IMG/VR virus record: IMGVR_UViG_3300012919_001543
Coordinates: 1-30,848 of that record
Source: a virus
Length of the DNA: 30,848 bases
Direction: 5' to 3' (one strand)
Position numbers and translations under genes: made by a program. Shown in pieces: positions 7,215-24,657 of this stretch. The notes under the pieces were generated by a model, which was not told the origin of the DNA, did no database searches, and saw nothing but the letters and a program-made list of their open reading frames with translations. Within the stretch, counting starts at the first letter, position 1, and every line of letters begins with the position of its first letter.

Positions 7215-7447
7215 TGGCTGGTGCAATTAACACACCGCTGAGGCAGTTGATAATGGATTGGACCGCACTACAGTTATTGGAAAAAGATCCAGACAATAAA
7301 ATACTAAAAAAACTACGCACTTGGCAACATCCTGAAACAATAGAGTTAGACAAACTATTGTCAACCTTTGAAAGGGATGGCAAATACCCTGAACATTATA
7401 ATTTAGATTGGGGTACAATCAACTATAAGGACTTTATCAAAGAATGA
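7214..7447 (+). CDS. Hypothetical protein between gp45 and TGT-like gene
   Basis: 77 residues, TAATG-coupled to gp45 and overlapping the next gene by four bases (ATGA). The N-terminal half is helical (LRQLIMDWTALQLLEKDPDNKILKKLRTW); the C-terminal half is rich in aromatic and acidic residues. It has no membrane segment and no motif I recognise. In T4 the clamp-loader genes 44 and 62 follow gene 45, but this protein is too short and too different to call gp62. Function unknown. Confidence 0.65.
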   Translation: MAGAINTPLRQLIMDWTALQLLEKDPDNKILKKLRTWQHPETIELDKLLSTFERDGKYPEHYNLDWGTINYKDFIKE

Positions 7448-8973
7448 AGCAACAAGTAAATTTAACTGAACGCAACAAAGACTACGCAGTATTCTTGCCT
7501 AGTATCAGTGGCTTCTATCAAACTTTTATCAGTAAACAACAGGAAACCGGAGACTATGTTCCACAAGATCGTATTCCTGCAGAGTTTGAAAATGGCATTG
7601 AAGGTTGCAACTTTTTAAACAAAGAACAAGCCTATTATGACTACAAATGGGCATTGTACAGTGCCGGGCATGCTCAACTTGATACTACAAAAAGCAATGT
7701 TGAAGAACGCATGATCCAGCTAAGAGATCGCCCAAACACATTTATATTGGGTGATAGTGGTGGTTACCAGATCGCTACAGGTGTTATAAAGTTTGATTGG
7801 CCAAACTTTTTTGAAACGCCAAATCAACCTAACTACGTAGGTGAAGCCGACAAACTGCGACAACGTATAGTTAACTGGCTTGAACATACTGCTGATTACA
7901 GTATGATACTTGATGTTCCCAGCTGGGCCGCCCGTCCTCCTCTCAACAAAAAGACCGGTCTAAGCAACATACAAGAATGCTTGAATGCAACTCAATTCAA
8001 CAGTGACTTTATACTACGCAATAGACAAGGCAAGACCAAATATCTAAATGTGCTACAGGGCAGTGATGATATTGAAGCAGATTTATGGTATGACGAAGTT
8101 AAACATCTGCCTTTTGAAGGTTGGGCAATGGGTGGTAATAACATGCAGGACATGAAACTGTTCTTGCGTAGAATGATCAACCTGCGAGACGATAAACTGT
8201 TGGAAAAAGGTGAGCGAGATCTTATACACGTTCTTGGAACCGGTTTGCTAGAATGGAGTGTGATGCTCACCGCAGTTAAACGTAAACTTCGCGAAACTGT
8301 CAATAGCGATCTGGAAATCTGCTTTGATTGTGCATCGCCGTTTTTGGCAACTGCATATGGACAAATCTACACACAACATGTGCATCAAAATGATAGGTTC
8401 AGTTATATCATGGACAAAGCATTAGATGACAAAAGACTAGCAGACAGTACAATACCATTGCCGTGGACTAGTCCTATTGCTGAGAGACTGAACATGGGTG
8501 ATATATGTTGGTACAAGCCTGGTATGTTAAATAAGTTAGGTAAAGAAGGCAAAACTAGTTGGGATAGCTTCAGTTATTTCTTAATGATGGCACACAACGT
8601 ATATCAACACATTGAAAGTGTACAACGTTCTAATGCATTAACTGATGCAGTGGTGGCCAGTTCTGATGTTGATTTGTATGATTGGCAAAAGAAACTAAAG
8701 CAAAAAAGCAAGATTGGCGAAGTGAATAAATGGGTTCCACGTAATTTGATTTACTTTTATGAACTAGTGGACAAAGTATTTGCAAGTGAAAAGCCAATGG
8801 ATGTAATCAACAACAATAGTGCATTGCTTGAAGAACTCAGCAAAAATAAAAGACACACCAGTACTAACACAATGCATGGTGCATTTTTTGAAGCTGAAGC
8901 AGTTGACAATGCTGATAGTACAATGGAGTTTGATGAACAAGAAGCAATGGATAAACTAAGTGAGGTTGTATAA
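7444..8973 (+). CDS. dpdA: tRNA-guanine-transglycosylase-like protein, DpdA-type DNA transglycosylase
   Basis: 509 residues with the order of TGT motifs: GDSGGYQ at 103-109 (TGT SDSGGFQ, substrate-binding Asp104), ILDVPS at 155-160, LNVLQG at 201-206, WAMGGN at 227-232, LGTG at 264-267 and FDCASP at 294-299. D295 sits where the TGT nucleophile is in FDCxxPTR. TGTs swap guanine for a 7-deazaguanine in tRNA; the phage paralogue DpdA does so in DNA. The TGT zinc motif CxCxxC is absent and the protein is longer than bacterial TGT, with a unique C-terminal 170 residues, both of which favour a DpdA-type enzyme. FolE, QueE and a QueD-like protein elsewhere in the window could supply its substrate. 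Confident of the TGT fold; the DNA target is inferred. Confidence 0.75.
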   Translation: MKQQVNLTERNKDYAVFLPSISGFYQTFISKQQETGDYVPQDRIPAEFENGIEGCNFLNKEQAYYDYKWALYSAGHAQLDTTKSNVEERMIQLRDRPNTFILGDSGGYQIATGVIKFDWPNFFETPNQPNYVGEADKLRQRIVNWLEHTADYSMILDVPSWAARPPLNKKTGLSNIQECLNATQFNSDFILRNRQGKTKYLNVLQGSDDIEADLWYDEVKHLPFEGWAMGGNNMQDMKLFLRRMINLRDDKLLEKGERDLIHVLGTGLLEWSVMLTAVKRKLRETVNSDLEICFDCASPFLATAYGQIYTQHVHQNDRFSYIMDKALDDKRLADSTIPLPWTSPIAERLNMGDICWYKPGMLNKLGKEGKTSWDSFSYFLMMAHNVYQHIESVQRSNALTDAVVASSDVDLYDWQKKLKQKSKIGEVNKWVPRNLIYFYELVDKVFASEKPMDVINNNSALLEELSKNKRHTSTNTMHGAFFEAEAVDNADSTMEFDEQEAMDKLSEVV

Positions 8974-13328: not shown

Positions 13329-14003
13329 ATGAAAATTTCAGAAACTATTAGACAAAGACTTGTTGATGCCGGTCAACGATTTCATTCCAATGACAACATC
13401 AGTGAGTATATTCAAGAAGGTGAACTTGAACAATTACAAGAAGAAGTAATGGAAGCATTCCAAGACGTCTTGAAAACTCTTGTTATTGACACAAATAATG
13501 ATCACAACACAGAAGATACTGCAAAACGTATTGCAAAAATGTATGTGCGTGAAACATTTGGTGGTAGGTATGCACCTCCTCCTAAAGTAACAAGTTTTCC
13601 TAATATGGGATATAAATCTCTTTACACAAGTGGACCAATCAGTATAAGAAGTACATGTGCTCATCATTTCCAAAACATTGTAGGTAGATGTTGGATTGGT
13701 ATTGTACCAAATGGTGAAGTCATTGGACTTTCAAAGTTCAATAGAATTGTACATCACATAGCTGAACGCCCACAGATACAAGAAGAGATGACAACAGAAA
13801 TAGCAAATCAGCTACAGACATTTGCAAAAACACCACACATTGCTGTGGTAGTTAAAGCAGAGCACCACTGTATGACGCATCGTGGTGTAAAAGAACATGA
13901 ATCAGATATGACAACTGCAATCATGTTAGGTGCGTTTGAAAAAGATCCAGCACTCAAACAAGAGTTCTACAACATTTGTATGAGCATGAAGGGTCATGGA
14001 TAA
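13329..14003 (+). CDS. folE: GTP cyclohydrolase I
   Basis: 224 residues, the length of E. coli FolE (222). Zinc ligands fall at the E. coli positions: C110 and H113 in STCAHHF, C181 in HHCMTHRG. The segment GLSKFNRIVHHIAERPQIQEEMT is the FolE signature, and the N-terminal helical part is normal. It converts GTP to 7,8-dihydroneopterin triphosphate, the first step of both folate and 7-deazaguanine (queuosine/archaeosine) synthesis. With QueE and a TGT/DpdA-like gene in the same window, the 7-deazaguanine route is the likelier use. A CTCGGAGA ribosome site sets the start. A strong terminator ends the unit six bases after the stop. Confidence 0.95.
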   Translation: MKISETIRQRLVDAGQRFHSNDNISEYIQEGELEQLQEEVMEAFQDVLKTLVIDTNNDHNTEDTAKRIAKMYVRETFGGRYAPPPKVTSFPNMGYKSLYTSGPISIRSTCAHHFQNIVGRCWIGIVPNGEVIGLSKFNRIVHHIAERPQIQEEMTTEIANQLQTFAKTPHIAVVVKAEHHCMTHRGVKEHESDMTTAIMLGAFEKDPALKQEFYNICMSMKGHG

Positions 14004-14037: not shown

Positions 14038-14058
14038 TGAAACATAGGTTAAAGCACA
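14038..14058 (+). promoter_or_regulatory. Leader motif shared by both binding-protein genes
   Basis: TGAAACAT (14038-14045) and GTTAAAG (14048-14054) followed by ACA. The same two words occur in the same order after the second terminator at 15209-15216 and 15223-15229, spaced by six bases instead of two. It could be a promoter for a phage-modified or alternative sigma factor, or simply a remnant of a duplicated cassette. No TTGACA/TATAAT pair is seen in front of this gene. Confidence 0.35.
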
Positions 14059-14080
14059 TCAAAAAGAAAGGTAAACCACT

Positions 14081-15172
14081 ATGAAACTAATCCAATTACT
14101 TACTGCAACAATGCTTGCAGTTACAATGGCGTTTACTGCATACGCAGATGAACCCAAAGACAAAGTCACAGCAGGCTTTATATATGTAGGACCAACAGGT
14201 GATCACGGTTGGACTTATAGACATGATATTGGCAGACAAGATGTTGAAAAACATTTTGGTGATCGAGTAGAAACCATTTTCGTTGAGAGCGTAAAGTATG
14301 GTCCAGATGCAACTCGTGTGATGCGTCAAATGGCTATGAAAGGTGTTGATATTATATTTGCAACTTCGTTTGGCTACATGGACAGTATGTTAAAAGTAGC
14401 AGAAGAATTTCCAAATGTAAAATTTGAACACGCTACTGGATATAAAACTGCACCTAACATGGCGAACTATGGATTGAAACTTTATCAAGCAAGACACGTT
14501 CAAGGTGTTATTGCAGGTATGATGACCAAGACTAACAAAATTTGTTATGTTGCCGCCTATCCAATTCCTGAAGTTATCAGAGAAATCAACACTTATTACT
14601 TAGGTGCAAAGTCAGTAAATCCTGACGTTGATATTGACATTGTATGGGTAATGACTTGGTATGATCCAGGCAAAGAAGCAGATGCCGCCAAGGCATTGTT
14701 AAGCCAAGGTTGTGATATTATTGCACAACACACAGACTCTCCTGCTCCTATTCAAGTTGCAGAACAACAAGGTAAATTTGGTTTTGGGCAAGCAAGTGAT
14801 CAATATAGATTTGCTCCTAAATCACAATTGACCGCAACTATCGATAACTGGTCACCTTACTATATTGCTAAAGTACAAGCAGTACTAGATGGCACATGGA
14901 CAACTGGTACATACTTTGGTGATATTAGCGAGTGCGATGCAACAGGTTGTGCAGTAGGAATGGCACCGTTTACTAATATGCCAGATGATGTAAAAGCAAA
15001 AGCACAAGAAATTAAAGACGCAATTTCTAAAGGTGAGTACTTTGCATTTACAGGTCCTTTAAAAGACAATAGTGGAAAACTAAGATTAGCTGATGGCGAA
15101 ATTGCCGATAGAGCTCATCTTGATACAATGAACTACTATGTAGAAGGTATTGATGCAACTGTACCAGATTAA
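14081..15172 (+). CDS. BMP/PnrA-family periplasmic substrate-binding protein
   Basis: 363 residues. Signal peptide at 1-22 with an AYA cleavage site before D23; no lipobox, so a soluble periplasmic protein. The mature part is a basic-membrane-protein (BMP/PnrA) domain: VTAGFIYVGPTGDHGWTYRHDIG at the start, IIFATSFGYMDSMLKVAEEFPNVKFEHATG in lobe one, and IVWVMTWYDPGKEADAAKALLSQGCDIIAQHTDSP in lobe two. BMP proteins bind purine nucleosides for NupABC-type ABC importers. No matching ATPase or permease adjoins it, so it would have to use a host transporter. It is a single-gene unit between twin terminators, with an AGAAAGG ribosome site. Marine phages are known to carry another binding protein, PstS; a BMP protein is not one I know from phages. 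Confidence 0.92.
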   Translation: MKLIQLLTATMLAVTMAFTAYADEPKDKVTAGFIYVGPTGDHGWTYRHDIGRQDVEKHFGDRVETIFVESVKYGPDATRVMRQMAMKGVDIIFATSFGYMDSMLKVAEEFPNVKFEHATGYKTAPNMANYGLKLYQARHVQGVIAGMMTKTNKICYVAAYPIPEVIREINTYYLGAKSVNPDVDIDIVWVMTWYDPGKEADAAKALLSQGCDIIAQHTDSPAPIQVAEQQGKFGFGQASDQYRFAPKSQLTATIDNWSPYYIAKVQAVLDGTWTTGTYFGDISECDATGCAVGMAPFTNMPDDVKAKAQEIKDAISKGEYFAFTGPLKDNSGKLRLADGEIADRAHLDTMNYYVEGIDATVPD

Positions 15173-15174
15173 TT

Positions 15175-15197
15175 AAAAGGGCCACTAGGCCCTTTTT
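15175..15197 (+). terminator. Rho-independent terminator after the BMP gene
   Basis: AAAA, stem GGGCC (15179-15183), loop ACTA, GGCCC (15188-15192), then five T. The A-run on the 5' side makes it potentially bidirectional. It has the same stem and loop sequence as the terminator at 14009-14032. Confidence 0.9.
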
Positions 15198-15205
15198 CAA
15201 TTTCC

Positions 15206-15236
15206 GGGTGAAACATTTTTTAGTTAAAGAACACCC
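15206..15236 (+). promoter_or_regulatory. Leader of the ABC importer operon with a hairpin
   Basis: GGGTG (15206-15210) can pair with CACCC (15232-15236) across a 21-nt loop that contains the TGAAACAT...GTTAAAG words shared with the BMP leader. An AGAGGAGA ribosome site follows just before the ATG at 15262. No TPP or other known riboswitch consensus is recognisable. Regulatory function is unproven. Confidence 0.35.
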
Positions 15237-15261
15237 ATAAACCTAAGAGGAGATAAAAAAA

Positions 15262-16197
15262 ATGAAACTATTAAAATCACTAGCAGTTAGTGTGGTAGCA
15301 TTACTATTCGCAACTACTGTACACGCAAAAGAAGTTACACTTCTTATGGATTGGTTCCCCCAAGGTAACCAAAGTGTTTTCTGGCAAGCAATGTTAGATA
15401 ACGACGAACATGATCTGAAAATTATTGTAAAGCCAGGTGGTCCTGGTGTAAACACCGCCGCACAAACGGCCGCAGGTTCAGTTGAGTTTGGTCTTCAAGG
15501 ATCAGATTCGGTTATGTCTGCAAACGCCAAAGGTGCTGGTTTAGTTGCAGTATTTGCCAACTTAGATCACGTTCCATATACACTCGTATTCCATCCTGAT
15601 CAAGGAATCAAATCCATTAAAGATCTTGACGGCAGACGTTTTGCAGTCAAAATGGGTGTTACTTACTGGAAGTGGGTAAAGAAAGAGTATGGCGTAAGTG
15701 CTGATGAATTCCCGCTTAAAGGCGACTTGGGTCTATTCGCTAGAGAAAAAGAAATGTTTCAACAGGGCTATTCACTTTTCCTACCTGCTAGATTGGCCGC
15801 AAAAGGTGTAGAAACAGATCAAATCACACTAGAATCTTTAGGTTACAGACCTTATAGTGTGTTGTTCACTACACAAAAAATGATTGATGAAAATCCAGAA
15901 CTTGTACAACAGGTGGTGGATAGACTGAGAGCGGCTTTTGCCAAATCTTTGAACAATCCTGATCCAACTGCGGATCTAATTCTTTCAAAGTCTAAAAAAG
16001 TTACAAGAGACATTCACATGGGTGCTATTGAACTTATGAAAGCAGACTTCTTGCCTAAAGACTACAGCAAACTTGGCTGTATGAAATCAGCAAGATGGGA
16101 AGAGCTTTCAGCACAGTTGAAAGAAGTTGATATGGTGCCTGCAGATTTTGATGCATCATCGTCATACAATCTATCATTCCTTGGCAACTGCGAGTAA
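15262..16197 (+). CDS. NMT1/THI5-type (ThiY/TauA/SsuA-like) periplasmic substrate-binding protein
   Basis: 311 residues. Signal peptide at 1-22, cleavage after VHA before K23. The mature protein starts EVTLLMDWFPQGNQSVFWQAM, which matches the LDWxPNxxHxGxYxA opening of NMT1/THI5 proteins. GPGVNTAAQTAAGSVEFGLQGSDSVMSA and GIKSIKDLDGRRFAVKMG are the usual second and third motifs. It binds a small solute in the periplasm: thiamine pyrimidine (HMP), riboflavin, or sulfonates such as taurine are the family's ligands, and the sequence does not decide among them. It is the first gene of a full importer operon, followed by its ATPase after 12 bases and then the permease. Confidence 0.9.
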   Translation: MKLLKSLAVSVVALLFATTVHAKEVTLLMDWFPQGNQSVFWQAMLDNDEHDLKIIVKPGGPGVNTAAQTAAGSVEFGLQGSDSVMSANAKGAGLVAVFANLDHVPYTLVFHPDQGIKSIKDLDGRRFAVKMGVTYWKWVKKEYGVSADEFPLKGDLGLFAREKEMFQQGYSLFLPARLAAKGVETDQITLESLGYRPYSVLFTTQKMIDENPELVQQVVDRLRAAFAKSLNNPDPTADLILSKSKKVTRDIHMGAIELMKADFLPKDYSKLGCMKSARWEELSAQLKEVDMVPADFDASSSYNLSFLGNCE

Positions 16198-16209
16198 GGA
16201 GTAGAGCTA

Positions 16210-16926
16210 ATGATAAGAGTTTCCAAAGTAACAAAACACTTTGATGAAGTTCAAGCATTAGCAGAAGTAAATTTAGATATTGCCACAGGCGAGTTCATCA
16301 GTATAGTTGGACCTTCAGGCTGTGGCAAGTCTACTTTGCTTAGAATAATTGCTGATCTAGTTTCAACCAATGGTACAATAGAAAAGCCCAACAAAGGTGC
16401 TTTTGTTTTCCAAGACAGTGCATTGTTACCTTGGCGTACAGTGCAAGGCAATGTAGAACTACTAATGGAACTAGAAGGAACAGAAAACAAAAGAGCAAAG
16501 GCCTCTGTCGCTCTTAGACAGGTAGGTCTAAACGGCTTTGAACGTTCATATCCACATCAACTAAGTGGTGGAATGAAGATGCGACTTAGTCTAGCAAGAA
16601 GTCTCGTTTTAGATCCTGAATACATTTTACTAGACGAGCCATTGAGTGCAGTAGATGAACTTACCAGAGAAGTACTGCAAGAAGAATTATACGAAATGTG
16701 GAGCAGGGATAAATTCACTGCGATACTAGTTACACACAACATCGCTGAAGCAGTATACCTCAGCAACCGAGTTGTTGTAATGAGTCCACGCCCAGGTAAA
16801 ATCACAGACGTTGTAAACATTGGATCCAGTTTAGGTTTTAAAAAACGCACACCAGAAATTAGAACAACACCACAGTTCAGCAAAGTGGTTAATGAAATAG
16901 CAGGAAAGTTAAGAACATGGAAGTAA
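16210..16926 (+). CDS. ABC transporter ATPase, TauB/SsuB/ThiZ type
   Basis: 238 residues, standard length. Walker A GPSGCGKST at 34-42, Q-loop Gln68 in FQDSALLPWRTV, signature LSGGM at 118-122, Walker B YILLDEP at 138-144, and H-loop His176 in VTHNIAEA. The LLPW after the Q-loop and the DELTREVLQEEL segment are typical of the nitrate/sulfonate/taurine/thiamine-precursor importer group. It couples ATP hydrolysis to import through the permease encoded next. An AAGGAG site precedes the ATG. All catalytic residues are intact, so this is not a decaying copy. It overlaps the permease start by ten bases. Confidence 0.95.
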   Translation: MIRVSKVTKHFDEVQALAEVNLDIATGEFISIVGPSGCGKSTLLRIIADLVSTNGTIEKPNKGAFVFQDSALLPWRTVQGNVELLMELEGTENKRAKASVALRQVGLNGFERSYPHQLSGGMKMRLSLARSLVLDPEYILLDEPLSAVDELTREVLQEELYEMWSRDKFTAILVTHNIAEAVYLSNRVVVMSPRPGKITDVVNIGSSLGFKKRTPEIRTTPQFSKVVNEIAGKLRTWK

Positions 16927-17690
16927 AAAAAATTATACCACCCATACTGATACTTGCACTGTTTTTGGGAGGTTGGCATATAGGTGCACTGATTTACGAT
17001 ATGGCATTCCTATTACCAACACCATATGCAGTATTACAGATATTCATACAAGATTTTAATATTATTATGATAGGACTAAAACAAACTTTCCAGGCCGCCT
17101 TTACAGGTTACATTATTGCTACTGTACTTGGTATTGCTGTCGCAACTATAATGAGTTTGAGTAAAATACTTGAACGCAGTTTATATCCTTATGCGATACT
17201 GCTACAAACAGTGCCTGTGGTTGCAGTAGCACCTCTAATTGTGCTTTGGTTTGGATTTGAAATAAAAAGCATTATCATAATCAGCATTATTATTGCACTA
17301 TTTCCTATCATCAACAACACACTGCTTGGACTAAAGTCAACTCCAAAAACATTGGTAGAATTGTTTGACTATCACAAAGCCAGCAGAGTTACAAGTTTTT
17401 TTAAACTGCGTTTTCCTAGTGCAATACCAAACATAATTGCTGGTATGAAAATAAGTGCAGGACTTAGTGTTATAGGTGCTATAGTTGGAGAATTTATAAT
17501 TGGTTCAGGAAGTGAACAAGGAGGCTTGGGTGTACAGATTATCTATGCACAGGCAAATTTAGAAACATCATTGGTTATGGCGTTGATACTTACAGCAACT
17601 GGTTTAGGGTTTGCATTTTTTATGACAATACAAACTATAGGTTGGTATCTGATGCGTAAATGGCATGAATCAGAAATGAAAGCGAGTTAG
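16917..17690 (+). CDS. ABC transporter permease, TauC/SsuC/ThiX type
   Basis: 257 residues with about six membrane helices (first at about 5-27, last at about 222-248). LPTPYAVLQIFI after the first helix is typical of the family. The cytoplasmic EAA-like loop that docks on the ATPase is seen around residues 140-172 (VELFDYHKASRVTSFFKLRFPSAIPNI), followed by GAIVGEFIIGSGSEQGGLGVQI. It forms the inner-membrane channel for the solute captured by the 15262 protein. The start overlaps the ATPase gene, and the next gene begins one base after its stop, so all are one transcript. Confidence 0.95.
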   Translation: MEVKKIIPPILILALFLGGWHIGALIYDMAFLLPTPYAVLQIFIQDFNIIMIGLKQTFQAAFTGYIIATVLGIAVATIMSLSKILERSLYPYAILLQTVPVVAVAPLIVLWFGFEIKSIIIISIIIALFPIINNTLLGLKSTPKTLVELFDYHKASRVTSFFKLRFPSAIPNIIAGMKISAGLSVIGAIVGEFIIGSGSEQGGLGVQIIYAQANLETSLVMALILTATGLGFAFFMTIQTIGWYLMRKWHESEMKAS

Positions 17691-17691
17691 T

Positions 17692-18720
17692 ATGCAAACA
17701 ACTGTAGAAAGAAGAAAACTAGGACTCACACAATACGACAATAGAACAGCAGGTGGTTACACACTGTTTGCTCCACAAACAGGAGGTGGTCGAGTACCAC
17801 TCATTGATGATGGTGGTGAACTAGTACATGAATGGAATATGCCTGTTAGACCAGGTAGAGATGCAGTAATACTGCCCAATGACAATCTTGGTTACAACGG
17901 CAGTCATAGTAAAAGCGTTGATCTTTATCCGCCATGGGATATTTGGCACGGTGGACACTTTATGGAAGCAGATCGTAAAAGCAATATACTTTGGGAGTAT
18001 GAAGATCCTTATGCACATCATGATGCACAATGGTTAAATGACGGATTGCTTTACGTAGCGGCGGCTGATTACAAAGATGGTCGTTACAGTGATATTGTAC
18101 GAATAGTTGACAGACAAGGTAATGTCAAATGGGAATGGTGTGCATGGAAAAAACTTAGTGAAAAGAATTGGCCTGTACATGAAGGTATGCCTGACAATCA
18201 TTGGCCCATGATCAATGGAGTACATTTGCACGATAATATCGTATACATGAGTTTGAGAAATACAAGTGGTATTATTGGTGTACACATTGACAGCAAAGAT
18301 GTAGTTTGGTCTGTGAAATGGCCTGATGTTGCACAACAACATTGTCCTGTTGTTACTGATAAAGGAACACTGATTGCATTCTGCAATGGTAATATTCGAC
18401 CACCAGGTGTGCATCACAGTAGAATTGTAGAGTTTGATCTAGCAAGTAAAGAATGCGTTTGGAGTTATGTAGACAACATGCCTCCTAGTTTCTTTTCACC
18501 TTACATGGGTAGTGTACAAAGATTGTGGAATGGTAATACATTTATTTGTGAAAGTGCATTTGGTAGATTGTTTGAAGTAACGCCAGAAGGCGATACTGTT
18601 TGGGAATACGTTATACCTGAGTTTGAAGAATATCCAGCACCTTTGAACCAATTTATAACCGGCAAACAAAACTCGTGTTTCAAAGCACACAGATACAAGG
18701 AATGGCAATATGGTTTATGA
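17692..18720 (+). CDS. Arylsulfotransferase (ASST)-like beta-propeller protein
   Basis: 342 residues. The opening GGYTLFAPQTGGGRVPLIDDGGELVHEWNM is the ASST pattern of a Gly-rich loop followed by a D-x-x-G-x-x-V-x-x-W repeat. Similar W-E/W-x repeats recur (SNILWEYEDPYAHHDAQWLNDG, GNVKWEWCAW, KECVWSYVD, GDTVWEYVIPEF), as expected for propeller blades. The DPYAHHD segment may hold the active-site His. ASSTs move sulfate from aryl sulfates to phenols. Classic ASST is periplasmic; here no signal peptide is seen, so it should stay in the cytoplasm unless the start is wrong. It lies in the importer operon one base after the permease, which suggests it acts on the imported compound. Confidence 0.75.
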   Translation: MQTTVERRKLGLTQYDNRTAGGYTLFAPQTGGGRVPLIDDGGELVHEWNMPVRPGRDAVILPNDNLGYNGSHSKSVDLYPPWDIWHGGHFMEADRKSNILWEYEDPYAHHDAQWLNDGLLYVAAADYKDGRYSDIVRIVDRQGNVKWEWCAWKKLSEKNWPVHEGMPDNHWPMINGVHLHDNIVYMSLRNTSGIIGVHIDSKDVVWSVKWPDVAQQHCPVVTDKGTLIAFCNGNIRPPGVHHSRIVEFDLASKECVWSYVDNMPPSFFSPYMGSVQRLWNGNTFICESAFGRLFEVTPEGDTVWEYVIPEFEEYPAPLNQFITGKQNSCFKAHRYKEWQYGL

Positions 18721-18883
18721 TAAAACTACAGATCCAGATGCTGGACTTAGATTAGATTTTACATCCAGAAAACGTGAGGGCTTTATGTCCTCAACTGGTG
18801 ATTCAATGCGACATGAGATGCAGAGAATGGTTGATAAAATAAACGAACTTGAAAAAAGAATAATAGAATTGGAGAGAAAATGA
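18710..18883 (+). CDS. 57-residue coiled-coil protein
   Basis: ATG at 18710 overlaps the end of the ASST-like gene, and its TGA overlaps the next ATG (ATGA at 18880). The product has a polar N-terminus (DPDAGLRLDFTSRKREGF) and a C-terminal heptad helix (VDKINELEKRIIELERK). The C-terminal helix resembles the end of the membrane protein at 2854 (DELEKRIKELES). Both junctions are typical of coupled genes, which supports it as real. Role unknown; perhaps an oligomerisation or adaptor peptide. Confidence 0.55.
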   Translation: MVYDKTTDPDAGLRLDFTSRKREGFMSSTGDSMRHEMQRMVDKINELEKRIIELERK

Positions 18884-19740
18884 TACCAGTAATAGATTTA
18901 AAATCAGATACCGCTCTTAAAGAAATTGAAGATGCTTATACTTCAATAGGATTTGCAGTTTTTACTAATCATTTTAATGAGCAAGAACAACGCACATACA
19001 ATTTATGGTTTGATACTATGAAACAGTTTTTTGAACTTGATCAAGAAACTAAACTAAAGTATCCATACGAAGGTGATACAAATTTAGGATATTCAGTAAT
19101 GGGTGCTGAGAATGTTGATCCAACTGCTCCAAAAGATTTGAAAGAAAGTTTCAACTATAACAACGACAGAATGGGCGACCATTTGTGGCCTGATATTGAA
19201 GGATTCAAAACAACTGCTAGAGCCACAGTTGATATAGCAGATAGATTAACCATTAAAATTATGACCATGTTTGATAGGATTCTTAACAGACCTGATATGC
19301 CTCTTACACGTTGTCATAAAGAAAACTACAGTACAACAAGAGTTATTCACTATCCTGCTTACACAGGTCCTATTGAAAACAAACAAATGAGAATTGGAGA
19401 ACACAGTGATTATGGAACTATTACATTACTGTGGCAAATCAATGATGTACCAGGACTTGAAGTACAAGATTTAGATGGTGCTTGGCATCCTGTGCCTTAT
19501 GCTGAAGATGGTGTGGTCTGCAACATTGGTGATTTACTACAACGTTGGACAAACGATTATTTTAAAAGCACAAAACATCGTGTCGTAAATACTCATATAG
19601 ATCAAGAACGTTGGAGTATGCCTCATTTTGTAGATCCAAAACCTGGTACAATGGTAGAAAATTTAACTAGTGAAACTGCAAAATATGAGCCTATAGAAAG
19701 CCTTGCATATCTTAAATGGAGATTGGCACAAAGTTATTGA
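18880..19740 (+). CDS. 2-oxoglutarate/Fe(II) oxygenase, isopenicillin-N-synthase-like
   Basis: 286 residues. MIPVIDLKS at the start is the usual IPNS-like opening. The iron triad is H175 and D177 in EHSDYGTITLL and H233 in STKHRVVN; the 2OG-binding pair is R244 and S246 in RWSMPHF. The LEVQDLDGAWHPVP strand between them is typical of the family. These enzymes hydroxylate or oxidise small molecules using oxygen and 2-oxoglutarate. It is the last gene of the importer transcript. A binding protein, ATPase, permease and oxygenase in that order recalls tauABCD, but this oxygenase is not of the TauD family. Substrate unknown. A new promoter begins inside its stop region. Confidence 0.9.
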   Translation: MIPVIDLKSDTALKEIEDAYTSIGFAVFTNHFNEQEQRTYNLWFDTMKQFFELDQETKLKYPYEGDTNLGYSVMGAENVDPTAPKDLKESFNYNNDRMGDHLWPDIEGFKTTARATVDIADRLTIKIMTMFDRILNRPDMPLTRCHKENYSTTRVIHYPAYTGPIENKQMRIGEHSDYGTITLLWQINDVPGLEVQDLDGAWHPVPYAEDGVVCNIGDLLQRWTNDYFKSTKHRVVNTHIDQERWSMPHFVDPKPGTMVENLTSETAKYEPIESLAYLKWRLAQSY

Positions 19741-19765
19741 CAAGTGCAAAAAAATGTAATAATAT
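19737..19765 (+). promoter_or_regulatory. Sigma70-like promoter before the 19778 gene
   Basis: TTGACA at 19737-19742, 17-nt spacer, TAATAT at 19760-19765 (four of six in consensus order). It overlaps the oxygenase stop. The -10 ends 12 bases before the ATG at 19778, and the AAGGA at 19766-19770 would lie at or before the transcription start, so the leader is very short. Confidence 0.65.
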
Positions 19766-19777
19766 AAGGAAACAAAA

Positions 19778-20002
19778 ATGAAACATGAAGGACCATTAGT
19801 AGCAATGTTTAATAGAGATGATGACGGCGTAGTTATGAAAAAAGTAATTACATATAGAAAAAAAGACAATCAATTGATTATGGAAACTGCCACAAGAACT
19901 TATACTGACAGTGGTGATTATCATGATACAAGCAGTGTACAGCCTTTAGTTGATTTAGGTTTCACACTAGCAGACAAAGTGCCCGGGGCAACAGGCAAAT
20001 AG
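19778..20002 (+). CDS. Small hypothetical protein
   Basis: 74 residues, first gene of a new transcription unit. It is a soluble protein with predicted beta strands (VVMKKVITYRKKDNQLIMETATRTYT) and an acidic N-terminus. There is no signal or membrane segment and no recognisable family. The ATG at 19778 is preceded by an AAGGA. The next gene starts one base after its stop, so it is co-expressed with the phosphoribosyltransferase. Function unknown. Confidence 0.7.
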   Translation: MKHEGPLVAMFNRDDDGVVMKKVITYRKKDNQLIMETATRTYTDSGDYHDTSSVQPLVDLGFTLADKVPGATGK

Positions 20003-20003
20003 T

Positions 20004-20537
20004 ATGGCGATAAAAAAGAAATACTATAGCTGGCAAGACCTTGAAGATCAGGTACAGGATCTAGTATATCAACTGTACAAATGCCCGTGGAAACCGGACT
20101 ATATAGTAGGACTTACCCGTGGTGGACTGACTCCTGCAATAGTTTTAAGTAATAGATTAGCTATTCCAATGTACGCACTAGATGTACGTTTGCGTGATAC
20201 CACTGAAGATTACACTGCTGAAAGTAACAAAGGCATGGCACAAGATGCACTAGGTTATGATGATAGATCAGATGGTATAAAATGGAATAGTGAAAAACAA
20301 AAAAATATATTGATTGTAGATGATATAAATGATTCTGGTGCAACTTTTGAATGGATCAAACAGGATTGGCAAAATAATTGTGAACCACGCAACGAACGTT
20401 GGAAACATGTATGGCATCAGAATGTTAAGTTTGCAGTACTAACAAACAATCTTGGAAGTACGCAAGACGTTGACTTTTATGTTGACGAAGTTAACAAAAC
20501 GGAAAAACCAGTTTGGCTGGTATATCCATGGGAGTAA
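20004..20537 (+). CDS. Type I phosphoribosyltransferase, xanthine/guanine-PRT-like
   Basis: 177 residues. The PRPP-binding motif ILIVDDINDSGATF lies at about residues 100-113, with the two adjacent acidic residues in place. KPDYIVGLTRGGLTPAIVLSNRL near the N-terminus is the pyrophosphate-loop strand of type I PRTases. The C-terminal VWLVYPWE matches the hood end (VFPWE) of xanthine/guanine/hypoxanthine enzymes. Those salvage a purine base plus PRPP into a nucleotide. An inserted Asp/Ser/Lys-rich loop at about 68-95 is longer than usual. Its likely role is purine salvage for phage DNA or for 7-deazaguanine synthesis. The purine preference is inferred from sequence resemblance only. Confidence 0.85.
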   Translation: MAIKKKYYSWQDLEDQVQDLVYQLYKCPWKPDYIVGLTRGGLTPAIVLSNRLAIPMYALDVRLRDTTEDYTAESNKGMAQDALGYDDRSDGIKWNSEKQKNILIVDDINDSGATFEWIKQDWQNNCEPRNERWKHVWHQNVKFAVLTNNLGSTQDVDFYVDEVNKTEKPVWLVYPWE

Positions 20538-23588: not shown

Positions 23589-23764
23589 TGAAAAGAAGTA
23601 TATTAAAAGATATGTGGATAGCATTTAGAAAAGATGATCGTCCACATTGGGAAGTAATGGCAGATGATGGAATGAATAAATTTTTAAAATTTTGTATATT
23701 CTGTGTATTTGCATTTTTCTCATATCATTTTATAGTTGCATGTATAGATAGGTTTTTTGGATGA
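23588..23764 (+). CDS. 58-residue membrane protein
   Basis: ATG in a TAATG junction; its TGA overlaps the queE ATG (ATGA at 23761). Residues 1-31 are basic and polar; residues 32-53 form one very aromatic hydrophobic segment (FLKFCIFCVFAFFSYHFIV) with three Cys in or near it. It is a small membrane protein upstream of queE in the same transcript. There is no family I recognise. Confidence 0.6.
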   Translation: MKRSILKDMWIAFRKDDRPHWEVMADDGMNKFLKFCIFCVFAFFSYHFIVACIDRFFG

Positions 23765-24657
23765 AACTAAGATACAGTGAAGCATTTTACAGTGTGCAAG
23801 GCGAAGGCAAGTTTGTAGGAGTACCAAGTGTATTCTTACGTACATTTGGTTGTAACTTTCGCTGTATGAATTTTGGTTTGAACAGAAACGAACCAATGCG
23901 TGACGTAAAACAAAAAGCTGGAATCAAACACAATCAAGAAGTACAAGGATTATTGGACAACAAAATACACGAAACTACAAAAGTATTTGAAGACTTGCCT
24001 ATCATACACACAGGCTGTGATACGTATGCAAGTATCTATCCTGAATTTAAACATTTTAATATGCTTAAAGAAGTAGATGAAGTAGTAGAACATTTAGTAA
24101 GTCTTTTGCCAGAGGGCAAATGGACATGCGATAATGGCCAGGACATACACTTAATAATGACTGGCGGTGAACCGTTGTTGGCGTGGCAACGACTGTACAT
24201 TGAATTATTTGAACATCCACGTATGCAGGATTTAAAAAATGTCACATTTGAAACAAACAGTACACAATTACTACATGATAATTTCCGAGACTATCTCAAC
24301 AACCACGACAGAATTACTTGGACATTTTCATGCTCGCCTAAACTATCCGTTAGCGGAGAACCTTGGGATACTGCTATCAAGCCTAATGTTGTTGCTGATT
24401 ACAATGATATACAAAACAGTGATCTTTATCTCAAATTTGTTGTTGCTGATCGTACAGATATTGATGAGGCTGGCAGAGCTGTCGATGAATATCGCCAAGC
24501 AGGCATTGAATGTCCTGTATATCTTATGCCATTGGGTGGTAGGTCTGAAGAGTACAACCTCAACGTTAAAGAAGTGGCAGAAATATGTATGGAAAAAGGT
24601 TGGCGGTTTACGCCCAGATTACACATCAGCCTCTTTGGAAATGCCTGGGGTACGTGA
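23761..24657 (+). CDS. queE: 7-carboxy-7-deazaguanine synthase QueE (radical SAM)
   Basis: 298 residues. The opening YSVQGEGKFVGVPSVFLRTFGCNFRC is the QueE signature. The enzyme turns 6-carboxytetrahydropterin into 7-carboxy-7-deazaguanine with a 4Fe-4S cluster and SAM. The usual cluster motif is CxxxCxxCDT. Here C31 and C35 are normal, but the third ligand appears only at C86 in HTGCDT, after about 50 inserted residues. The SAM-binding MTGGEPLL and the late RLHISLFGNAWG follow as expected. Variation of this loop is known in QueE proteins, so the insertion is probably functional. With FolE, a QueD-like protein and a TGT/DpdA-like enzyme nearby, the product most likely ends up in phage DNA. 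Confidence 0.93.
   Translation: MKLRYSEAFYSVQGEGKFVGVPSVFLRTFGCNFRCMNFGLNRNEPMRDVKQKAGIKHNQEVQGLLDNKIHETTKVFEDLPIIHTGCDTYASIYPEFKHFNMLKEVDEVVEHLVSLLPEGKWTCDNGQDIHLIMTGGEPLLAWQRLYIELFEHPRMQDLKNVTFETNSTQLLHDNFRDYLNNHDRITWTFSCSPKLSVSGEPWDTAIKPNVVADYNDIQNSDLYLKFVVADRTDIDEAGRAVDEYRQAGIECPVYLMPLGGRSEEYNLNVKEVAEICMEKGWRFTPRLHISLFGNAWGT

Follow-up and report, generated by a model that had tools for sequence, protein, structure and literature searches.

A recurrent viral gene cluster combining a complete ABC importer with nucleotide-salvage genes suggests nucleobase import for new virus genomes

Virus genes that raise nutrient uptake, such as phage PstS and the ABC-transporter genes of viromes, have been described previously, and one virome study reports that ABC-transporter and nucleotide-synthesis orthologues are enriched in aphotic viromes (PMC5504273). 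The cluster analyzed here differs from these in holding all importer parts together with nucleotide-salvage enzymes. Its closest cellular counterpart is the plasmid operon INQ48_40215-40200 of Variovorax paradoxus VAI-C, in which the same four families are adjacent in the order arylsulfotransferase-like (ASST-like) protein, substrate-binding protein (SBP), ATPase, and permease; it contains the nearest cellular SBP found (43.5% identity) and an ASST-like protein with 47.4% identity. However, this putative importer operon is cellular, begins with the ASST-like gene, and, over the segment inspected, shows neither a phosphoribosyltransferase (PRTase) gene nor other salvage genes. The Salmonella STM3631-3632 type encodes an ASST-like protein with 55% identity, but its partner is a uracil-xanthine permease, a secondary transporter, instead of an ABC importer; within the literature searched, STM3631 comes up in one paper and STM3632 in none. 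A literature search covering titles and abstract openings returned no description of the phage importer cluster.

The window, the whole stretch of 30,848 nucleotides analyzed, is an IMG/VR virus record. The cluster, which is wider than the importer and spans about 14081-20537, contains the following features.

14081..15172, + strand: BMP-type periplasmic binding protein of the purine-base type, a relative of AtzT and 3s99 (PF02608, 165 bits)
15175..15196, + strand: terminator-like hairpin separating the BMP gene from the importer (9-bp stem, -14 kcal/mol, z -4.1; absent from the pattern-scan list)
15262..16197, + strand: NMT1/THI5-type SBP, 311 aa, with a hydrophobic N-terminus (PF09084, 75.7 bits; cut-off, 20.5)
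16210..16926, + strand: ABC transporter ATPase, 238 aa (PF00005 ABC_tran, 98.1 bits; cut-off, 25)
16917..17690, + strand: ABC transporter permease, 257 aa, with six predicted helices (PF00528 BPD_transp_1, 90.3 bits; cut-off, 26.4)
17692..18720, + strand: ASST-like protein, cytosolic (PF05935, 52.0 bits; cut-off, 24.2)
18880..19740, + strand: 2-oxoglutarate/Fe(II) (2OG) oxygenase, thymine-7-hydroxylase-like (PF03171, 73.0 bits)
19778..20002, + strand: small ORF, 74 aa, in the place of the adenylosuccinate synthase gene of a close relative (L053)
20004..20537, + strand: purine-type PRTase (PF00156, 58 bits)

The importer at 15262-17690 is complete and intact, which confirms the central claim of an earlier note on this DNA. 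Its three ORFs all start with ATG and have no internal stops; the SBP and ATPase genes are 12 bp apart, and the ATPase and permease genes overlap by 10 bp. The other details given in that note were also borne out: the ATPase contains all of the catalytic motifs (Walker A, Q-loop, LSGG, Walker B, D-loop, and H-switch), six hydrophobic segments of the permease pass the applied threshold, and the SBP has a single N-terminal hydrophobic segment, judged by eye to be a signal peptide. A crude pattern for the EAA loop gave no match in the permease, and the promoter scan found 24 promoters versus 24.4 expected by chance. The dN/dS values of the importer genes, calculated against five relatives, ranged from 0.039 to 0.179, which indicates that they are under purifying selection. 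Such selection and the recurrence of the same gene order in other contigs place these genes beyond chance.

The proposed search of viral contigs for the SBP-ATPase-permease trio showed that it recurs on related virus contigs. The resulting set of 29 contigs comprises the window, 27 other IMG/VR contigs (64-98% protein identity to the window), and one contig of a metagenome-assembled genome (MAG). The SBP and ATPase genes occur on all 29 contigs and the permease gene on 25, and the 4 contigs lacking it all stop within 272 bp of the ATPase gene. Six contigs were mostly covered and the rest at the locus only, so that counts involving absences are lower bounds, and the counts are not independent, with many contigs being related or near-duplicate (L015/L016/L027 and L025/L026/L040, for example). 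Outside this set, IMG/VR contig 3300023176_007983 (L087/L113) also has the SBP, ATPase, permease, and ASST-like genes. The many metabolic genes in the flanks, and the lack of detectable T4-type capsid (gp23) and tail sheath genes on 22 related virus fragments, the window not among them, might suggest a chimeric assembly or a host locus fused to a phage contig, which the earlier note had named as its refuter. However, besides the recurrence of an intact importer, in one relative (L006) the cluster ends 50-odd bases ahead of a terminase-like ORF, the window aligns with an 80-kb contig across both importer borders, and the G+C content of the importer (0.36-0.41) equals that of the phage genes (0.37-0.39). 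As far as can be judged from sequence, a chimera is therefore very unlikely, and we give it almost no weight.

The virus was previously described as a T4-like phage, a description that fits some of the relatives better than the window itself. T4-type genes are present on contigs carrying the cluster, including those for gp17 and gp4 (L006), gp46/47 (L023), gp43 (L021), and gp43 with RegA (L019), whereas the DNA polymerase of the window shares 49% identity with that of the jumbo phage Phosso and 30% with gp43 of HTVC008M, a T4-like pelagiphage. In a collection of 50,697 phages, no protein exceeded 22.5% identity with the SBP, and the permease had eight weak matches of no more than 34%. A scan of genome contigs for bacterial relatives, which needs near-exact 7-residue patterns and so does not reach distant hosts, matched 48 stretches, one of which was a true relative (L040). 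This contig is filed as Chloroflexi and is itself phage-looking. The kinship with HTVC008M, Phosso, and 3s99 allows no more than a guess at an alphaproteobacterial host.

The ligand is most strongly indicated by the purine-salvage neighborhood, which the earlier note overlooked. PRTase genes are present on 26 of the 29 contigs, and at least one gene for GMP reductase, PRPP synthetase, PurA, or an adenine-PRT-like protein is present on 19; among the 50,697 phage records, PRTase and GMP reductase had 10 and 75 matches, respectively. The gene orders, with gaps of mostly a few bases, are PRTase-BMP-SBP-ATPase-permease-aspartate carbamoyltransferase (ATCase)-ASST-2OG-nucleosidase-GMP reductase in L013 (likewise in L014, plus ribose-5-phosphate isomerase), GMP reductase-PRTase-SBP-ATPase in L020, PRTase-SBP-ATPase-permease-2OG-ASST-PRPP synthetase in L003, and SBP-ATPase-permease-ASST-2OG-adenylosuccinate synthase-PRTase in L053. 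One representative each of ATCase, RpiB, the adenine-PRT-like protein, GMP reductase, PRPP synthetase, and PurA scored above its NCBIfam cut-off, and the nucleosidase-like ORFs of L013 and L014 scored below theirs. The L053 synthase is assigned to PurA (549.8 bits; cut-off, 402), assignment to PurZ being rejected (138.8 bits; cut-off, 300). Its family is labelled "aminooxy adenylosuccinate synthetase" in PHROGs. The family profile of the window PRTase is nearest the archaeal purine PRTases 1vdm, 4trb, and 4z1o; only this wider kinship stands, as a xanthine PRTase assignment failed (NCBIfam, 40.4 bits; cut-off, 138). A membrane protein of L015 (8273-9406) beside the adenine-PRT-like gene was considered as a nucleobase permease and dropped, having no Pfam, NCBIfam, or PHROG match.

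The BMP-type protein also points to purines. It shares 54% identity with 3s99 and 46% with AtzT, and the guanine-pocket residues Ser97, Phe98, Glu165, and Trp194 of AtzT, which is reported to bind guanine at about 110 nM (PMC6834077), are retained in all 15 phage copies. Trp45 and Asp220 are as in 3s99, and positions 218 and 169 are variable. Unlike the AtzT/3s99 systems, the 23 phage records searched, window included, contain no BPD_transp_2 permease. Since no such permease was found, the BMP protein may scavenge purine bases and probably delivers them to a BMP-type permease of the host.

In the fold search, the SBP matched the pyrimidine binder 3ix1 (Z, 20.0) and the thiamin binder 4nmy (Z, 19.7) on top, ahead of SsuA (Z, 15.5), and its top solved relatives are thiamin-bound 4nmy (1.6e-14) and THI5/THI13. 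The fold ranking counts toward a nucleobase-like ligand. Both results would also suit an importer of thiamin or its pyrimidine precursor HMP, taken up as a cofactor missing from many marine bacteria and not as a nucleic-acid base. Nevertheless, identity to such ThiY-type/THI5-like binders is just 13-19%, the gene neighborhood is different, with purine enzymes as the importer's neighbors, and the annotated clusters showed no gene of the thiamin pathway. In seven sources, no Rfam family scored at or above its gathering threshold, so that riboswitches gave no ligand clue and, as weak evidence, no TPP riboswitch was detected. Thiamin or HMP is an unlikely candidate ligand. The import of 7-deazaguanine, a queuosine precursor, for DNA modification is quite improbable. 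Although the window encodes a QueE-like protein, GTP cyclohydrolase I (FolE), whose gene immediately precedes that for BMP, and the product of an ORF (7444-8973) resembling by eye a tRNA-guanine-transglycosylase/DpdA relative, this ORF has no Pfam, PADLOC, or PDB match, and the importer occurs without these genes, FolE being found on 7, QueE on 6, and the 7444-type ORF on 8 of the 29 contigs, mostly fragments.

An aromatic sulfate, sulfonate, or other aromatic acid, opened by the ASST-like protein and the oxygenase for its sulfur or carbon with the salvage genes as coincidental cargo, has a small chance of being the substrate. Of all partners of the importer, the ASST-like gene recurs most constantly: it is present on 24 of the 29 contigs, and conversely the importer accompanies it in all 23 testable contigs of the 27 bearing it, 4 that start <430 bases from the gene being set aside. 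In the encoded protein, His217 is invariant and lines up with position 436 of 3elq_A, presumably the catalytic His of arylsulfate sulfotransferase. SsuA_fam is also the top NCBIfam model for the SBP, but it and every Tau/Ssu model fall far below their cut-offs (SsuA_fam, 59.4/163.5 bits; TauA, 19.3/304.25; TauB, 183/357; TauC, 52.8/342; SsuC, 68.5/347), and SsuA/TauA folds score about 4.5 Z units under the pyrimidine binders. Sulfonate or taurine, suggested earlier among the candidate ligands, is therefore disfavored and was dropped as the best reading. Arylsulfate sulfotransferase is a periplasmic enzyme, whereas the ASST-like protein of the window has no hydrophobic N-terminus and hence no signal peptide, and its phage and cellular kin likewise lack one (N-termini of 19 proteins, by eye). 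The phage ASST-like proteins form one clade (100/100; tree of 19 rows). Nine cellular neighborhoods of the gene were opened, and in the eight that were annotated (that of Allorhizobium was not and was left out), it adjoins an SBP-ATPase-permease importer in four, a uracil-xanthine permease in three, and a tripartite-type binding protein in one. The uracil-xanthine permeases argue against an aromatic substrate, and these cellular neighborhoods count toward a nucleobase. Also in favor of a nucleobase, cytosine deaminase genes are adjacent to all three of the more distant rhizobial importers (28%) examined.

We consider, with a probability of about 0.62, that the importer supplies phage nucleotide synthesis with a nucleobase-like ring from outside the cell. 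The sequences establish the genes, their intactness, linkage, selection, and family membership, whereas the ligand, the transport, the reaction order, and the use of a host permease belong to the proposed model. In the proposed path, the SBP would catch the ring in the periplasm, a purine most likely and a pyrimidine possibly, and the ATPase and permease, both presumably dimers, would carry it into the infected cell, where the PRTase would join it to PRPP. Either the imported base or a modified one is the probable substrate of the ASST-like protein and the 2OG oxygenase. In the relatives, PRPP may be supplied by the phage PRPP synthetase, and GMP reductase and adenylosuccinate synthase may interconvert nucleotides for phage DNA synthesis. 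The packing of importer and salvage genes suggests that the virus makes its host import ready-made nucleobases for new virus genomes.

Several observations weigh against the nucleobase reading. The PRTase is the sole salvage enzyme of the window, the others being in relatives, and the BMP gene is missing from 14 of the 29 contigs, including one close relative. Neither the ASST-like protein nor the oxygenase has an established role in a salvage path. The top solved matches of the latter, thymine dioxygenase 5c3p (1.2e-26) and 3on7 (5e-26), are nearly tied, and ethylene-forming enzyme fits a second 2OG subfamily better than thymine hydroxylase does. Elsewhere, ASST-like genes lie beside the tripartite-type binding protein gene and near 6-hydroxynicotinate reductase in Comamonadaceae and near amino-acid ABC and flavin genes in Streptomyces. 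In the SBP tree, the phage importers are widely separated from those of Alloyangia, Salipiger, and Streptomyces, and a single phage clade was not supported (2 changes; bootstrap unsettled). The predicted SBP structure has intermediate confidence (mean pLDDT, 66), with a poor second domain. Purine and pyrimidine metabolism genes are also generally common in marine viruses, according to PMC5504273.

A broader reading of the nucleobase importer is more tentative, and we rate it somewhat below even odds. The cluster may be a portable viral nucleobase-feeding operon with which at least two phage lineages import an environmental base, probably modified, convert it with the ASST-like protein and oxygenase, and make nucleotides with their own PRPP synthetase, PRTase, GMP reductase, and adenylosuccinate synthase. 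In that case, the ASST-like protein would represent an undescribed utilization step common to phages, roseobacters, Variovorax, Burkholderia, Pantoea, and Salmonella. Phages are generally considered to draw most of their genome building blocks from the breakdown of host DNA and from fresh synthesis by the host; if the nucleobase reading is true, dissolved environmental nucleobases would be a direct source for virus production. The cluster also provides an entry point to a bacterial family that is conserved but unexplained, the cytosolic ASST-like proteins tied to nucleobase-type transporters.

The window, which derives from an IMG/VR virus record, carries at positions 15262 to 17690 the complete ABC importer described in the earlier note, consisting of three intact and closely packed genes for an NMT1-type substrate-binding protein (SBP), an ATPase that retains all its catalytic motifs, and a permease containing six hydrophobic segments. 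The gene cluster extends past the importer on both sides, as follows.

14081-15172, purine-base-type BMP binding protein, 5' of the importer
17692-18720, arylsulfotransferase-like (ASST-like) gene, beginning two bases past the permease
18880-19740, 2-oxoglutarate (2OG)/Fe oxygenase, downstream of the ASST-like gene
Between the oxygenase and phosphoribosyltransferase genes, ORF of 74 amino acids
20004-20537, phosphoribosyltransferase (PRTase), last of the downstream series

A terminator-like hairpin parts the BMP gene from the importer. None of the genes for PRPP synthetase, GMP reductase, adenylosuccinate synthase, and an adenine-PRT-like protein was found in the window.

Scanning of viral contigs with the SBP retrieved 28 loci on 27 contigs, which, together with the window and one contig (L040) of a MAG filed as Chloroflexi, formed a set of 29 contigs whose counts are partly nonindependent, with near-duplicates among them. 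The search of viral contigs for the trio, proposed earlier, found the SBP and ATPase genes on all 29 contigs and the permease gene on 25; the remaining four contigs terminate within the ATPase gene or no more than 272 bases past it. PRTase, ASST-like, and BMP genes were present on 26, 24, and 15 of the 29 contigs, respectively, and a 2OG oxygenase of either of two subfamilies was present on 18. A reverse scan using the ASST-like protein as the query yielded 27 contigs. All 23 ASST-bearing contigs with more than 1.2 kb upstream contained the permease and ATPase genes, and 22 contained the SBP gene, which in the exception falls across a contig gap. This reverse scan and the recurrence on 29 contigs make an artefact, for which the earlier note had named chimeric assembly, very unlikely. 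The dN/dS values of the SBP, ATPase, and permease genes ranged from 0.039 to 0.179.

Gene maps of the relatives place the importer set among nucleotide-salvage genes. In the locus L013, the order is PRTase, BMP, SBP, ATPase, permease, aspartate carbamoyltransferase, ASST, 2OG oxygenase, a nucleosidase-like ORF, and GMP reductase; L014 has the same gene set plus ribose-5-phosphate isomerase. PRPP synthetase then follows in L003, L004, L008, L019, L022, and L029, adenylosuccinate synthase is found in L053 and L012, and an adenine-PRT-like gene lies between the BMP and SBP genes in L015, L016, and L027. Representatives of the salvage genes exceeded NCBIfam cut-offs, and the PRTases fell below the xanthine-PRTase cut-off, their profile being nearest to archaeal purine PRTases. 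Of the 29 contigs, 19 carried one or more of the GMP reductase, PRPP synthetase, adenylosuccinate synthase, and adenine-PRT-like genes. Among 50,697 phage records taken as background, 10 had the PRTase and 75 had GMP reductase. In L053, a close relative, the window block 14045-15178 with the BMP gene is missing and adenylosuccinate synthase replaces most of the stretch holding the 74-amino-acid ORF, which indicates that parts of the cluster come and go singly. An isocitrate-lyase-family gene (345 bits) lies between the ASST-like and GMP reductase genes of the phage-like contig from the Chloroflexi-filed MAG (L040:11493-12770), and an insertion of an SbmA/BacA-like peptide transporter gene (388.5 bits) separates the ATPase and permease genes in L023 (L023:7518-8546). 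A protein with eight predicted membrane segments adjoining the adenine-PRT-like gene (L015:8273-9406) matched no Pfam, NCBIfam, or PHROG family and may be a new transporter type.

The window BMP protein shares 54% identity with 3s99 and 46% with AtzT, for which one study gives an adenine-modelled structure and a guanine affinity of about 110 nM, respectively (PMC6834077). Ser97, Phe98, Glu165, and Trp194 are conserved in all 15 phage BMP copies, positions 45 (Trp) and 220 (Asp) are the same as in 3s99, position 139 is Arg in all, and positions 169 and 218 are variable. The usual partner of BMP proteins is a BPD_transp_2 permease. Since none was found in 23 records, our guess is that the phage BMP protein uses a host permease.

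In fold, the importer SBP model (mean pLDDT, 66) most resembled 3ix1, which binds pyrimidine (Z, 20.0), and 4nmy, which binds thiamin (Z, 19.7), with weaker matches for NrtA (16.1), SsuA (15.5), and TauA (15.4). The window oxygenase is nearest to thymine 7-hydroxylase, with an unassigned oxidoreductase almost equal, and the second 2OG subfamily is nearer to an ethylene-forming enzyme. Cellular ASST-like genes adjoin a transporter in all eight annotated neighbourhoods: an SBP-ATPase-permease importer in four (Variovorax, Alloyangia, Salipiger, and Streptomyces), a uracil-xanthine permease in three (Salmonella, Pantoea, and Burkholderia), and a tripartite-type binding protein in one (Comamonadaceae). 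The ASST-linked Variovorax SBP is the closest cellular one found (43.5%), with long identical stretches in pairwise alignment with that of the window, and cytosine deaminase adjoins more distant rhizobial importers in the three inspected. Together with the BMP pocket, these clues point to a nucleobase-like ring as the importer ligand. The phage collection contains a Salmonella Infantis contig (L042:7971-10478) on which an ASST-like gene (STM3632 type) lies beside a uracil-xanthine permease, after a LacI-type regulator; STM3631 comes up in a single paper of the library searched and STM3632 in none.

The carrier had been called a T4-like phage, which holds for some relatives with T4-type genes beside the cluster, but the window DNA polymerase is nearest to those of jumbo phages (Phosso, 49%; Atu_ph07, 46%) and shares 30% identity with gp43 of the T4-like pelagiphage HTVC008M. 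Terminase and gp4 of T4 type lie near the cluster in L006, gp46/gp47 in L023, and gp43 in L021, and the L019 contig has gp43 and RegA. Judged from these sequences, the cluster is therefore carried by at least two phage lineages. No gp23 or sheath families were found on 22 related virus fragments, and no record in the 50,697-phage collection exceeded 22.5% identity with the SBP.

Elsewhere in the window, an ORF at 7444-8973 resembles by eye a tRNA-guanine-transglycosylase/DpdA relative and had no database matches. With GTP cyclohydrolase I (13329-14003) and a QueE-like protein (23761-24657), it may point to a 7-deazaguanine DNA modification. The 80-kb contig IMGVR_UViG_3300037991_002593 (L054/L055) encodes a TctA-family permease (PF01970, 268 bits) followed by two ORFs resembling exported binding proteins by eye (L054:9369-13837), the first having no real Pfam match; this near relative of the window may encode a second importer. 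Several long ORFs of the contig look by eye like radical-SAM/SPASM proteins.

PstS is a known phage gene raising uptake. The PHROGs profiles phrog_293 and phrog_6743 match the ATPase and permease, and thus phage relatives of single importer parts exist. No description of a phage with a complete importer and salvage genes was found among titles and opening parts of abstracts, a weak absence. One study reports that aphotic viromes are enriched in ABC-transporter orthologues (PMC5504273), and another describes a viral shift towards nucleotide synthesis (PMC4022391).

We infer the transport, the ligand, and the order of steps in the importer pathway. In the likeliest scheme, the SBP would catch a base, which the ATPase and permease would carry into the cell, where the PRTase may activate it with PRPP. 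The ASST-like protein and the oxygenase may convert the imported compound, and the nucleotides would be interconverted by phage enzymes.
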